Source: a virus. From it: a DNA stretch of 34,650 nucleotides. The position numbers were made by a program, and so were the translations under genes. The first letter of the stretch is position 1, and each line of letters starts with the position of its first letter. Shown piece by piece: positions 9,348 to 21,052 of the stretch. The DNA lies in the IMG/VR virus record IMGVR_UViG_3300019758_000278, positions 1-34,650 of that record; one strand, written 5' to 3'. Under the pieces are notes generated by a model. The model did no database searches, was not told the origin of the DNA, and saw only the letters and a list, made by a program, of their open reading frames with translations.

Positions 9348-10076
9348 ATGCCTAATCCAATTAATAAAATAATTTTCACACCAAAACAACATCAGTTTTT
9401 ACGTAATAACTATGGTTCGATGACTAACCGACAATTAGCTGATGCTTTAGGTTTAAAATTAACACGTGTAAGAATGGAGTTGTATTCTTTAGGGCTTAAA
9501 AGAATGGAGTTGCAATACTGGACAAAAGAACAAGTGCAATTTCTTAAAGATAATTACAAGTTGTTTGGAGATACTGAATTGGCGGAAATATTCGAAGTGA
9601 AATGGCACAAACCAAAAGGTTGGACTAAAAAGCATATTGAAAAGAAGCGACGATACCTAAAGCTTAAAAGAACGATAGCACAAAAAAAGAACATTTTTAA
9701 GCGTAATAAAGCTATGGGCAGATGGAGTGAGTGTGCAAAGAAACGTTGGGGAACAACAGGACAAGCAAAAAAGGGAGACAAAAGAGTATGGTTTACTTCT
9801 GATAGCAACCTTCCTTTTGTAGTTATAAAAACGAAAACAGGGTTTGTACATTATAATCGATGGTTATGGAAAAAACATAAAGGAACTATTCCTCCAGGAA
9901 TGAATGTCGTTATCAATGGAAGTGATAGAATTAATTATACGATTAATGATTTAATACTTCTTACTAACGCAGAACTGTCCGCAAGAAATTCAAAAAACAG
10001 GGTGGCTTCAGAATTTAAAGAGACTCAAAACTTAATTAGAAAAATAAATAAATACACCATTAAAAATGAAAAATAA
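9348..10076 (+). CDS. two-HTH protein with degenerate HNH domain, candidate regulator
   Basis: This 242-residue basic protein begins with two tandem Myb/SANT-like or HTH repeats: residues ~10-50 (FTPKQHQFLRNNYG, NRQLADALGLK) and ~57-80 (WTKEQVQFLKDNYK, DTELAEIF). A Lys/Arg-rich linker follows (~95-140). The C-terminal third is laid out like an HNH endonuclease (RWLWKKHKGTIPPGMNVVI, NDLILLTNAEL). The normal catalytic His in the 'vHHxD' position is replaced (VVINGSD), so nuclease activity is doubtful. DNA binding looks certain. Its place near the end of the early operon, where Mu has Mor and C, makes a middle/late activator attractive but unproven. Alternatively it is a decayed homing-type endonuclease. 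Confidence 0.72.
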   Translation: MPNPINKIIFTPKQHQFLRNNYGSMTNRQLADALGLKLTRVRMELYSLGLKRMELQYWTKEQVQFLKDNYKLFGDTELAEIFEVKWHKPKGWTKKHIEKKRRYLKLKRTIAQKKNIFKRNKAMGRWSECAKKRWGTTGQAKKGDKRVWFTSDSNLPFVVIKTKTGFVHYNRWLWKKHKGTIPPGMNVVINGSDRINYTINDLILLTNAELSARNSKNRVASEFKETQNLIRKINKYTIKNEK

Positions 10077-10416
10077 TATAGAAGGACTTAACGATGTACT
10101 TTTTGATACTCTTAAAGGTTTAAACTCAGGAGATGTTTCAGTATCTAAAGCAAAAGCAATTGTAGATGTAAGCACAGCAATAACTAAAAACGCATCCTTA
10201 CAATTACAAGTATTTAAACTATCAAAAGGAAAAGTAGCTCCTCCGAGTTTATTAAGTGAGAAAAAATTTAGAGCTACTATAAATTCTACTGATAAACATG
10301 AGCAACTAACTGAATTTGCTGTTAGTATAGGTTATGATAATGTGACTGAAGCAATAGGCGATTTAGGAAAGTTTGAGTTTGAAACTAAGTTTAAAAAGGA
10401 GTTTTTAGAAAAGTAA
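10066..10416 (+). CDS. small conserved-type phage protein (116 aa)
   Basis: The 116-residue protein opens with a pattern (GLNDVLFDTLKGLN, then SKAKAIVDVSTAITKNASLQLQ) that I recognise from small phage and prophage proteins of the 'LNdxLFxqLxxLnd ... RAkAixdvaxxIixnA' type. These have unknown function and are usually near early/late regulators. Here the N-terminal ~55 residues match that pattern and the C-terminal half is different. It overlaps the two-HTH gene by 11 bases and is the last gene before a strong terminator. Confidence 0.65.
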   Translation: MKNNIEGLNDVLFDTLKGLNSGDVSVSKAKAIVDVSTAITKNASLQLQVFKLSKGKVAPPSLLSEKKFRATINSTDKHEQLTEFAVSIGYDNVTEAIGDLGKFEFETKFKKEFLEK

Positions 10417-11030: not shown

Positions 11031-11061
11031 TTGACTTGTATTGGGTTGAATATTATTTTTG
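11031..11061 (+). promoter_or_regulatory. Bacteroidota-type promoter candidate
   Basis: TTG at 11031-11033 is followed after 20 bases by TATTTTTG at 11054-11061, matching the -33 TTG / -7 TAnnTTTG layout of flavobacterial sigma factor promoters. It overlaps the first codons of a longer reading frame whose ATG coincides with the -33 region. The next in-frame ATG at 11067 is only 6 bases downstream, so the transcript would be leaderless or nearly so if this promoter drives it. Confidence 0.45.
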
Positions 11062-11066
11062 TTATA

Positions 11067-11258
11067 ATGGCAAGCAACCCCGACTTAATAAAACGCAAGA
11101 GAGAGGATATAAGAAACGAATTCCATAACAAATGGCAAACCAAAACTTATCAAGGTGTGCCAATTTACTCTTTAGCATATATTTATATGAAATTAGGCGA
11201 AAAGTATTACTTGTCGCCTAAAACCATCGAAAATATTTTATTTCACCGAGTTAATTAG
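11067..11258 (+). CDS. small HTH-like DNA-binding protein (63 aa)
   Basis: The start at MASNPDLIKRKRE (11067) was chosen over an upstream in-frame ATG at 11031, because the added residues are hydrophobic and the promoter-like site lies there. The 63-residue protein has a basic helix (KRKREDIRNEFHNKW), then a helix-turn-helix-like end: SLAYIYMKLGEKYYLSPKTIENILF, in which the segment YYLSPKTIENIL is typical of small recognition helices in Bacteroidota phage proteins. It may regulate the late modules. Its last 8 bases overlap the end of the convergent minus-strand tail-terminator gene. Confidence 0.6.
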   Translation: MASNPDLIKRKREDIRNEFHNKWQTKTYQGVPIYSLAYIYMKLGEKYYLSPKTIENILFHRVN

Positions 11259-16891: not shown

Positions 16892-17207
16892 ATTGTTCTG
16901 ATAAACCTTTTATTGGGTAAATTGAAAAAAAGTGTTGTACTTTATTTTGACGATAATTGTAGGTAAGGTTTTTAATGTACTTAGTACGAATTATTCCTTT
17001 GTTATCTTTGTATTTTACTGGTTGTCCAACCTGTAAAACAGTGCCTTTTTTTAAATAGTACGCTCCTTTTTCTAAGTCTATTTGTCTTTTTGGAGCATCT
17101 GCCCACCATAATTGCAGTATTCTTTTTCTAAAACTCCACCAATTTTTTAAATTACTTACTGCTATTTTAAAGCGGGTTTTAATTCTATTTAAACGTTGTT
17201 TAATCAT
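16875..17207 (-). CDS. small basic protein between the terminase subunits (110 aa)
   Basis: Not recognised. The 110-residue protein is strongly basic, with a helical Trp-rich N-terminal half (NLKNWWSFRKRILQLWWADA) and a beta-rich second half (YYLKKGTVLQVGQPVKY, HFFSIYPIKG). The charge and position suggest a DNA-contacting packaging or assembly accessory. The stop-start relation with TerS (adjacent, TAATG-like) and the 17-base overlap with TerL support translation. Confidence 0.6.
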   Translation of the reverse strand: MIKQRLNRIKTRFKIAVSNLKNWWSFRKRILQLWWADAPKRQIDLEKGAYYLKKGTVLQVGQPVKYKDNKGIIRTKYIKNLTYNYRQNKVQHFFSIYPIKGLSEQFEKRR

Positions 17208-17701
17208 TATCCTAGTTTTAAACTAATCTCAGTTAAATGCTCCTCTTGAAAAGTTAGGCACTTCATGTAAAGTTTTACATCATGTTTTTGAAGTGCATTA
17301 AAAATACTCTGCATCACATCTATATAAATAGAAAGTGTTACACGGTTTTCTTTGTCAAGATTTTGTAATGTTTTGTTGTAATTGGCTACTTCAGCAGAAA
17401 TACGAGCTGATTCTTTCTGTAACCGCTCTTTTTCTTCAAGGTCATTGTTCTCTGTTGCCTTGTCCATCTCTCTTATGATGTCCATACGGCGTTGTGTAAG
17501 TTCAGATATTAGTTTCTTGGTATGTGTAATTTGGTTTTTTGTGGAGTTAAAACGAGCGTCACGCTCTTCTTTCCAACCAAATTTTTTTACCCAGTCACTA
17601 ATAGTCTTCTCTTGCACTTTTACAATAGACGCTATTTCTTTTTGAGTTAGCCCTTTTATATACAACTCTTTTGCGGTTCTTCTCTCTTCTATTTTTGCCA
17701 T
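17207..17701 (-). CDS. terS: small terminase subunit, HTH type
   Basis: This 164-residue protein opens with a helix-turn-helix (AKELYIKGLTQKEIASIVKVQEKTISDWVKKFGW, residues ~9-43), which would recognise the packaging site. A long charged coiled coil follows (residues ~50-110, TKNQITHTKKLISELTQ onward) as in oligomerising TerS rings, and a helical C-terminal segment that would contact TerL. It is the first gene of the minus-strand head module, next to the divergent intergenic region. Confidence 0.85.
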   Translation of the reverse strand: MAKIEERRTAKELYIKGLTQKEIASIVKVQEKTISDWVKKFGWKEERDARFNSTKNQITHTKKLISELTQRRMDIIREMDKATENNDLEEKERLQKESARISAEVANYNKTLQNLDKENRVTLSIYIDVMQSIFNALQKHDVKLYMKCLTFQEEHLTEISLKLG

Positions 17702-17848
17702 AATAATGGTACAAAATTGTAGTAATTCTTTGTGAGTTCTAAATGAAAGTACTACGGTGGTAGTTTGACTGTACTATGATGGTAATAAATAGTGATTATT
17801 GTGTTTTGCCAATTTTTATAAACACCTATAACCCTGCAATTTTGCGGT
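17702..17848. promoter_or_regulatory. divergent late control region with paired 13-bp repeats
   Basis: This 147-bp region separates the minus-strand packaging module from the plus-strand structural module. Two repeats, TACTACGGTGGTA (17750-17762) and TACTATGATGGTA (17772-17784), differ at two positions and start 22 bp apart, about two helical turns. The first lies within an inverted repeat, ACTAC-GGTG-GTAGT (17751-17764). No exact TAnnTTTG box with an upstream TTG was found on either strand, so transcription may depend on a phage activator, like the late promoters of Mu. The region also lies near the centre of the window and next to the protease gene, where Mu has its strong gyrase site, so a gyrase site could coexist here. 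Confidence 0.5.
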
Positions 17849-18994
17849 ATGAATATGAAACAACCACAGGGTTTTTACGCAGCATTTTCTACCATAGAAG
17901 CACTACAGGTGTTGGCAGAAACATATCCTTTAAAGCTTACAGTTGAAGCAAAAGGAGACACGGCTAATATTTCTATTGTAGGTGCTATATATAACTTCCA
18001 CAACAATTCTCAATGGTTTAGATCGGAGGTTGAAAAAGTGCAAAAACAAGGTTCTAAAAATGTACACCTTTATTTGAATACTCCTGGTGGAGATGTTTTT
18101 GAAGCGAATGAAATAGGAAATATTATAGATTCATTTGAGGGAGAAGTTACAGGAGAAGGAGGAGCTTTAGTAGCATCAGCAGGAACTTACATAGCCTCTA
18201 AATGTAAAACTTTTGAAATGCCTGCCAACGGTAAGTATATGTATCATAAACCTTTTGGTAGAATTGAAGGGAATGAGGATGAAGTGGCTTCTAAACTTGA
18301 ATTACTTAAAAGTTTAACATCTGATTACCGAAAAACGTATGCAGAACAAACAATTCATTCAGAAGATCAAATTGAAGAGAATTGGGTAAAAGGTGATGTT
18401 TGGCTATCTGCTGATCAAGCACAAAAACAAGGCTTTATTACTTCAGTTAAGAAAAAAGTAAAACTATCGGCAGCAGATGCTTCCTTAATTGCTGCCTGCG
18501 GAGCACCAAACCCGCCACAAATTACGAACAAAACAGAAATTAAGAATATGGAATTAAGTGTATTAGCTGTAAAGTTGGGTTTACCATCTACAGCAACCCA
18601 AGCCGAGGTTGATGCAAAACTAGATCAACTTCAAAAAGATGCAGCTACTGCTCAAGGTTTAGTACAAGCAAGTGCTGATAGAGAAAAAGCAGAAAAAGCT
18701 GCTAACATTAAAGCTTTGTTAGATACTGCTGAAAAAGATAAGCGTATTACAGCTGAACAAAGAACCTCATGGCAAACAATGGCAGAGGCTAATTATGATG
18801 CCGCTAAAGCTGCTATAGAATCATTAAAGCCTATTGATGCTATTTCAGCACAAATTACTCCTGGTTCACAAGGGGCAGAAAACCGTAATGCTTGGACTTT
18901 TGCAGATTATCAAGCTAAAGATGCAGCTGCATTTGAAAAGCTACCTGAAGAAACACAAAAAGCATTAATTGACGCTCATTACCAAGAAGACTAA
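17849..18994 (+). CDS. ClpP-like prohead protease with fused scaffold domain
   Basis: This 381-residue protein is a serine protease of the ClpP (S14) fold at residues ~25-215, with NTPGGDVFEA, the nucleophile region ALVASAGTYIA (S110) and MYHKPFG (H133). The C-terminal ~150 residues (from ~234) are Ala/Lys/Gln-rich and helical, typical of a scaffold. As in Mu gpI, the protease would mature the prohead and the scaffold part would shape it. Within the gene an ATG at 18548 (M234, MELSVLAVKL) is exactly at the scaffold boundary, so a separate scaffold (like Mu gpZ) could be made by internal initiation. First gene of the + strand late module. Confidence 0.88.
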   Translation: MNMKQPQGFYAAFSTIEALQVLAETYPLKLTVEAKGDTANISIVGAIYNFHNNSQWFRSEVEKVQKQGSKNVHLYLNTPGGDVFEANEIGNIIDSFEGEVTGEGGALVASAGTYIASKCKTFEMPANGKYMYHKPFGRIEGNEDEVASKLELLKSLTSDYRKTYAEQTIHSEDQIEENWVKGDVWLSADQAQKQGFITSVKKKVKLSAADASLIAACGAPNPPQITNKTEIKNMELSVLAVKLGLPSTATQAEVDAKLDQLQKDAATAQGLVQASADREKAEKAANIKALLDTAEKDKRITAEQRTSWQTMAEANYDAAKAAIESLKPIDAISAQITPGSQGAENRNAWTFADYQAKDAAAFEKLPEETQKALIDAHYQED

Positions 18995-20142: not shown

Positions 20143-20592
20143 ATGAGAACAATAAAGCACATAGTAATTCATAGTACTGCAACCAAAGAAGGTGTTGATT
20201 TTGATGCTAATGATATTAATAACTGGCACTTGCAACGAGGTTGGTCAGGTATTGGTTATCACTATGTAGTTAAGTTAGACGGAACCATAGAAAAAGGTCG
20301 ACCAGACTGGAAAGTAGGAGCGCATGTAAAAGGCTTCAATCGTAATAGCATTGGTGTTGTTTATGTTGGAGGTCTTTCTGAAGAGTTAGCACCTAAAGAC
20401 ACTAGGACTGAGGAACAAAAAACCTCACTAAGCTGTTTACTATACGAGTTAAAAGAAAAGTACCCTAAAGCTGAAATTTTAGGACATAGAGATTTCTCAA
20501 CAGACTTAAATAACAATGGTGTTATAGAGCCATTTGAATTTATTAAACAGTGTCCTTGTTTTGACGCTAAAGAAGAGTACAAAGATGTTTAA
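20143..20592 (+). CDS. N-acetylmuramoyl-L-alanine amidase, endolysin
   Basis: This 149-residue protein is an amidase_2 / T7 lysozyme-type zinc amidase that cuts the amide bond between muramic acid and the stem peptide. Zinc ligands are visible: H10 (IVIHSTAT), H115 (LGHRDF) and C137 (KQCPCFDA), with K135 at the catalytic Lys position of T7 lysozyme. The family signature SGIGYHYVVKLDGTIEKGRP is present at ~32-54. There is no signal peptide or SAR anchor, so export needs a holin, which lies 8 kb downstream. The spanin-like gene overlaps its end by 8 bases. Length matches T7 lysozyme (151). Confidence 0.93.
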   Translation: MRTIKHIVIHSTATKEGVDFDANDINNWHLQRGWSGIGYHYVVKLDGTIEKGRPDWKVGAHVKGFNRNSIGVVYVGGLSEELAPKDTRTEEQKTSLSCLLYELKEKYPKAEILGHRDFSTDLNNNGVIEPFEFIKQCPCFDAKEEYKDV

Positions 20593-21052
20593 AAAGTTAT
20601 TGTTAATAGTGTTGGTGCTTTTACAGTCGTGTAAGCCAACAGAGATAGTTACAAAAGAAGTACAGGTTAAAGATAGTGTGAGTGTAAAAACTACGCTAAT
20701 GCCTAGAGATACCATTGTTACTATTTCTGCTGATAGCATTAGTATAAATATACCTATTAGTGATATTACTGAAAAGCCTATTGTAAAAAAGTCTAAACGA
20801 GTAAGAACCTCAATTAAACGTGTTGGAAATAGCATAGAAACAAAGTGCAACGCTGATGAGTTGGAAAAGCAGATAGCAATTAAAGACAAACTTATTGAAA
20901 CCTATCGTTCAAAAAAAACTCAAGAGCAAACCACAGTTACTATACCAGTAAGATATACACCAAAACATATTCAACTTCTTGCATGGGTTGGAGGTGTAGT
21001 AATTTTATTACTGGGTTTTGGAATTGTATTAAAAATTAAAAAAATCATTTAG
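20585..21052 (+). CDS. unimolecular spanin-like lipoprotein
   Basis: The start at 20585 (MFKKLLLIVLVLLQSC) is chosen over an ATG at 20534 because it exposes a clean lipoprotein signal with lipobox LLQSC (lipidated C16). The 155-residue protein has a beta-rich, then coiled-coil periplasmic region (residues ~17-128) and one C-terminal membrane helix (IQLLAWVGGVVILLLGFGIVL, ~129-150) with a positive tail KIKKII. A lipoprotein anchored in the outer membrane that also carries a C-terminal inner-membrane helix is the layout of u-spanins such as T1 gp11, which fuse the two membranes at the end of lysis. It overlaps the endolysin gene by 8 bases, which supports the lysis role. Confidence 0.75.
   Translation: MFKKLLLIVLVLLQSCKPTEIVTKEVQVKDSVSVKTTLMPRDTIVTISADSISINIPISDITEKPIVKKSKRVRTSIKRVGNSIETKCNADELEKQIAIKDKLIETYRSKKTQEQTTVTIPVRYTPKHIQLLAWVGGVVILLLGFGIVLKIKKII

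Follow-up and report, generated by a model that had tools for sequence, protein, structure and literature searches.

How might two sets of late genes that run away from each other be switched on from one short stretch of DNA? The question is raised by a virus record of 34,650 bases (the window, meaning the whole stretch analysed here), in which a divergent intergenic region of 147 bp (17702-17848) separates two operons. The gene order is that of a Mu-like phage of Bacteroidota: a transposase, a MuB-like ATPase (TniB/AAA in Pfam) and a rightward early region are followed by the two diverging operons. The large DDE-type transposase (MuA) was assigned by its position and a weak rve match, and since no repressor gene is found ahead of it (1-240), the record probably lacks the left phage end. 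The leftward operon begins with the small terminase subunit TerS (17207-17701, minus strand; Pfam Terminase_5, E 2e-8), which carries a helix-turn-helix (HTH) at its N-terminus according to the Pfam search of the window, and continues with a small ORF, TerL, adaptor, portal, MuF and neck genes. The rightward operon begins with a Clp-type head protease (17849-18994, plus strand; Pfam CLP_protease, E 8e-19), followed by capsid, amidase, sheath and tail genes. An earlier note on this DNA had described the region as bidirectional, which the gene directions on both sides bear out. Its packaging genes do run left as claimed there, but the accompanying statement that all structural genes run right was too loose, as portal, MuF and neck genes are leftward and lysis genes are also rightward.

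The window shares this layout with the Winogradskyella phage Peternella, whose TerL is 67% identical to its own. Clp protease, neck, capsid and sheath genes and Mu-type transposition, all traits of the Winoviridae type, are present, and the protease, capsid and neck homologues were aligned. Two public labels deserve comment. The TerS homologue of Peternella, gp38 (20408-20947 of locus L021), is annotated as 'DNA-binding transcriptional regulator', while its position and the Pfam assignment of the window homologue indicate a terminase subunit. A small protein of the window (10066-10416) matches PHROG 2044 with its first 63 residues ('RNA polymerase beta subunit', E 7.5e-11), a label that is probably an annotation error.

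Promoter boxes and repeats of the divergent region

Promoters of the Bacteroidota primary sigma factor consist of TTTG at -33 and TAnnTTTG at -7 (PMC7366714, PMC9723704). A scan of both strands of 17702-17848 found no strict TTG-Nx-TAnnTTTG, and the view that the region holds no host-type promoter is thus literally true; it nevertheless overlooks a -7 box with C for the first T and a T-rich -33 position on each side. Two exact copies of CAATTTTG, one at 17712-17719 (minus strand) ahead of the packaging/head operon and one at 17837-17844 (plus strand) ahead of the protease/capsid/tail operon, face outward as mirror images about position 17778, the centre of the second of two repeats discussed below. 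A T-rich stretch lies exactly where a -33 element is expected, some 20 bp ahead of each -7 box, reading TTTA on the left (17740-17743, minus strand; placed by anchored alignment) and TTTT, not TTTG, on the right (17813-17816, plus strand). Box layout and spacing resemble those of Bacteroidota primary-sigma promoters, from which the late versions differ in having C, A or G for the first T of the -7 box, and TTTT for TTTG. With the -7 box placed at -12 to -5, as in F. psychrophilum (PMC9723704), the leftward transcript is predicted to start at about 17707, leaving a 6-nt leader to the TerS ATG at 17701, and the rightward one at about 17849, which is the A of the protease ATG. The rightward late transcript (17844-17855) would then be either leaderless or translated from a second ATG after 6 nt.

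Between the boxes lie the two 13-bp repeats, 22 bp apart, to which the earlier note had drawn attention: TACTACGGTGGTA at 17750-17762 (centre 17756, at about -49 and 44 bp away from the left -7 box, measured to its G) and TACTATGATGGTA at 17772-17784 (centre 17778, halfway between the -7 boxes and at about -71 relative to either predicted start), neither assigned to a strand. They are present as described, but by themselves they are not significant, since 44 of 400 shuffled versions of the region, and likewise 26 of 235 equal-sized tiles from the window, contain two 13-mers that agree at 11 or more positions and lie no more than 60 nt apart; the 13-bp repeat taken alone was accordingly rejected as a chance signal. 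No further close match to it was found in a search of the whole window. Each repeat is, however, a dyad in its own right, TACYAYNRTRGTA, and being palindromic probably forms one dimer site. A third, degenerate site, GATTATTGTGTTT (17794-17806, centre 17800, no strand assigned), was placed by the 22-bp register of relatives; it is weak in the window and retains only the inner YAYNRTR.

A fixed geometry among relatives

Large-terminase scans yielded first 11 and later 80 viral loci, along with 6 loci in genomes; viral contigs scanned with the protease gave no match. From the terminase loci, 91 divergent TerS/protease regions were cut, of which 58 were distinct once near copies had been removed. 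From CAAA of the left box to the G of TTTG in the right box, 33 of the 58 measure exactly 132 bp; another 11 have 131 or 133 bp, and loci L002 and L038 have 154 bp, i.e., 132 + 22. When random insertions and deletions were placed mid-region as a control, at most 9 regions shared any one distance. The sequence between the boxes is poorly conserved (median ungapped identity 38% vs 28% for shuffles). Absence from close relatives had been set beforehand as the outcome that would count against the element; what we found is conservation, of geometry more than of sequence. Positions on which the alignment was not anchored are also kept in the 132-bp class: the A of nAnnTTTG is present in 33/33 right and 32/33 left boxes, and TTTT occupies -36 to -33 on the right side in 97-100% of the 33 relatives, with a weaker version on the left (T in 67-85% at positions -31 to -29, counted from the G of the -7 box). 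Given this near-invariant TTTT against the weaker T-rich stretch, the rightward late promoter may be the stronger of the two.

Repetition within the regions follows the same measure. Identity autocorrelation rises to 0.414 at lag 22 and 0.353 at lag 44, most other lags lying at about 0.285, and in 27 of 46 regions the best triple of dyads at 22-bp spacing is centred exactly on the midpoint, against an expectation of 1.6 (binomial 7e-28). The sites themselves differ from phage to phage, for instance CCCATNATGGG three times in L005, the TTACCGAATCGGTA type in L042 and L071, and TACGGAATCCGTA in L016. Outer sites are centred at about -49 and the middle one at about -71 of both predicted starts. 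Locus L030 has four sites at 21-bp spacing and 151 bp between the boxes, and still its outermost site centres lie 44 bp from the box on both sides; L002 and L038, with less clear sites, fit 88 + 3 x 22 = 154. Since the array varies in size and the 44 bp of the 132-bp class are kept in L030, the fixed quantity is the distance from site to promoter. Other loci depart further: L077 has a spacing of 111 bp and poor dyads, and the divergent regions of L107 and L096 are enlarged to 560 and 402 bp, that of L107 containing a run of tandem GAGTAAT repeats adjoining TerS.

A 63-residue protein as the probable binder of the array

As candidate regulators, two proteins had been put forward for the array. 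The two-HTH protein (9348-10076) does not hold up: it is rare in relatives, occurring in only 6 of the 39 covered loci that encode the other candidate, and PHROG places it with HNH endonucleases; it was rejected. The other, a 63-aa HTH protein here called p63 (11067-11258, plus strand), is our proposed late activator on the strength of its homologues, its AlphaFold2 model and the operator covariation described below. Its gene is the last to run rightward before the left late operon reaches its end from the opposite direction, and homologues lie at the corresponding position in 53 loci. The AlphaFold2 model (pLDDT 85.7, pTM 0.64) consists of a long helix, a small beta hairpin and an HTH. Searches of p63 against Pfam, PHROGs and the Mor profile gave no match, nor did NCBIfam above its cut-off or PDB sequences at a meaningful E; the NCBIfam family CD3324 gave a weak hit below cut-off (E 0.047), and Foldseek of the model returned nothing at E<=0.001. 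Fold matches to TnpE, the Ibeta domain of Mu transposase and DeoR (Z 5-6) were set aside as too weak, middling and unspecific.

Among non-redundant loci, the strict geometry is found in 34 of 40 with p63 and in 0 of 5 covered loci without it (Fisher 4e-4), the latter being a small set of more distant loci. Two of the six p63 loci that fail do so narrowly (L084 has 132 bp with a corrected TerS start, L105 has 132 bp with one mismatch), and the others have 130 bp (L050, L056), 134 bp (L060) or the 111 bp of L077. Three additional prophages with p63 (L116, L117, L118) also have 132 bp, though L116 is close to L048, which the set already included. The same divergent TerS/protease order occurs in hankyphage p00 and Flavobacterium phage fF4, and neither in them nor in MT835523 did we find a p63 homologue or the 132-bp geometry.

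Operator similarity follows p63 identity (r 0.62). Partial Mantel correlations between operator and p63 stay within 0.34-0.63 (p<=0.0045) whichever of ten control proteins is conditioned on, whereas each of the ten given p63 is near zero or negative and none is significant; the test used 22 operators picked by array quality, and its permutation removes phylogeny in part. It is thus likely, as far as comparison of sequences can tell, that p63 binds the array. The 63-aa protein is supported as the candidate regulator by this covariation together with the co-occurrence, and the suggestion of a bidirectional late control region with same-face sites for a dimeric phage activator fits the comparative geometry, the dyads and the co-occurrence alike.

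A host regulator or another phage protein could bind the array instead, and the comparison took in only genes within the fetched flanks. Yet p63 alone accounts for operator differences among the proteins tested, and the HNH/HTH protein is mostly absent; one conserved host factor is argued against by an operator sequence that varies between phages while the geometry stays fixed. We consider such a binder quite unlikely. Repeated sites are common in pac and cos regions, and with the terminase gene starting next to the array and TerS carrying an N-terminal HTH, the array might be a pac site bound by the small terminase. This is very improbable: operator similarity does not follow TerS once p63 is given (-0.05, p 0.64), the array keeps a fixed distance from promoter boxes on both sides, and the Mu-like ends and hybrid phage/host reads of the Mu-like relative Peternella (PMC8776804) would not be expected from a mid-genome pac site. 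The location near mid-genome (17.7-17.85 kb of 34.65 kb) also calls to mind a central topological element, as Mu has a strong gyrase site at its centre. A gyrase site would not be expected to have phage-specific dyad arrays that follow p63, however, and the corresponding region is not central in all phages (about 17.2 of 42.8 kb in hankyphage, about 19.3 of 32 kb in fF4), which leaves this reading barely credible.

Binding by p63 leaves the direction of its effect to be considered, and here the quality of the promoters is informative. The late -7 box begins with T in only 1 of 66 cases and with C, A or G in 65, the right box never having T. The p63 gene has a host-type promoter of its own, TTG-N20-TATTTTTG (11031-11061, plus strand; TTG at 11031-11033, TATTTTTG at 11054-11061, ATG at 11067), and a TAnnTTTG box precedes the gene in most relatives, in 28 of the 29 members of the same phage set that show a box near the start (Fisher 9e-22 vs late boxes). 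The idea that the organism uses the host motif elsewhere therefore holds for the p63 gene, but not window-wide, where TTTG-N17-22-TAnnTTTG is not enriched (2 found vs 3.15 expected). In L082, L086, L088, L094, L103 and L104, the p63 promoter is immediately preceded by a hairpin with a run of T's that resembles an intrinsic terminator; its presence in many relatives suggests that p63 is transcribed as a separate unit.

Since the host machinery accepts T at the p63 promoter, the late promoters can be said to avoid it, and off-consensus late boxes beside a consensus p63 box suggest that the late promoters stay weak for as long as p63 is not there to activate them. It is mainly this avoidance that argues for activation rather than repression. 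Covariation ties p63 to the sites and says nothing on the sign of the effect, so p63 could in principle repress the late genes or mainly silence them in lysogeny. A repressor is unlikely, given that the sites lie upstream of -33 and not over the promoter, that late boxes lack the consensus T, as would be expected of promoters needing help rather than blocking, and that the p63 gene is itself preceded by a consensus promoter.

A proposed late switch and its relation to known systems

The geometry, the dyads and their conservation, the co-occurrence, the covariation and the off-consensus boxes can be read directly from the genomes; from them we infer dimeric binding, activation, start sites and the timing of the late switch. 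We hold it highly probable that the region is a single mirror-symmetric switch, in which the array sits between two weak host-sigma promoters and p63 dimers turn on both operons. The two outward-pointing promoters, with their CAnnTTTG -7 boxes and T-rich -33 positions, would depend on the host sigma factor and each probably be weak alone. Each dyad of the array between them, usually of three sites 22 bp (about two helical turns) apart, would probably be bound by a p63 dimer, the middle dimer being common to both promoters. The outer dimers, about 49 bp upstream of the predicted starts and just behind -33, could contact RNA polymerase. Because it has its own consensus host-type promoter, p63 would appear first and would then switch on both operons, packaging and structural, together.

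The closest known arrangement is that of the P2 promoters PP and PO with their activator Ogr. In both, packaging and portal genes diverge from protease and capsid genes at one element, and a small phage protein activates (here, as we propose) both directions through a dyad; in Smp131, PP' and PO' share one TGT-N12-ACA site (PMC3931495). Ogr, however, is a zinc-finger protein acting through TGT-N12-ACA at four late promoters, whereas p63 is an HTH protein without a Cys motif: read from ATG 11067, the p63 of the window contains no cysteine, which leaves no place for the Ogr/Delta motif CX2CX22CX4C, and in place of TGT-N12-ACA its presumed sites show TACYAYNRTRGTA in the window and dyads that differ from phage to phage among relatives. 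In contrast to P2, one array was found in the window, of several sites at 22 bp and with mirror spacing, and the promoters are of Bacteroidota type.

In Mu, the late promoters are separate and co-directional. Mu and its activators Mor and C nevertheless offer a likeness in the Mu-like genome, in an activator gene (here that of the proposed activator) that ends an earlier rightward operon, and in a dyad just upstream of -35/-33, the Mor site lying at -43.5 (PMC4390567) and C binding upstream of -35 (PMC4461284). The inverted repeat just upstream of the promoter, a Mor-like trait, would correspond to the dyads found at that place here. At about half the length of Mor or C, p63 was rejected as a member of their family for want of a match to the PF08765 (Mor) profile, which picks up Mu Mor (E 1e-34) and C (2e-35), while the window and seven relatives give no hit at E<=10. 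Mor is also absent from the Pfam matches of 42 p63 relatives, and a peptide search for Mor relatives gave no match. By these tests, the arrangement belongs to neither the Ogr nor the Mor/C family. We found no account of late gene control in Mu-like Bacteroidota phages in the open-access literature searched, though an earlier description may exist elsewhere: the Peternella paper (PMC8776804) nowhere mentions promoters, and passages of the hankyphage paper (PMC12135933) treat a CI-like repressor and transcriptomics.

We think it fairly probable, with less assurance than for the switch itself, that p63 founds a new family of phage activators that serve the Bacteroidota primary sigma factor and are minimal in size (about 60 aa), with modular arrays, a specificity that co-evolves with the operators, a fixed distance of 44 bp, and off-consensus promoters that make both late operons dependent on p63. 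A proposed regulator, its sites and a strict geometric rule over dozens of genomes are thereby in hand, which makes the proposal testable at once. The phages offer a natural series of activator-operator pairs for learning the HTH recognition code, and p63 may provide a phage-derived on-switch for Bacteroidota promoters.
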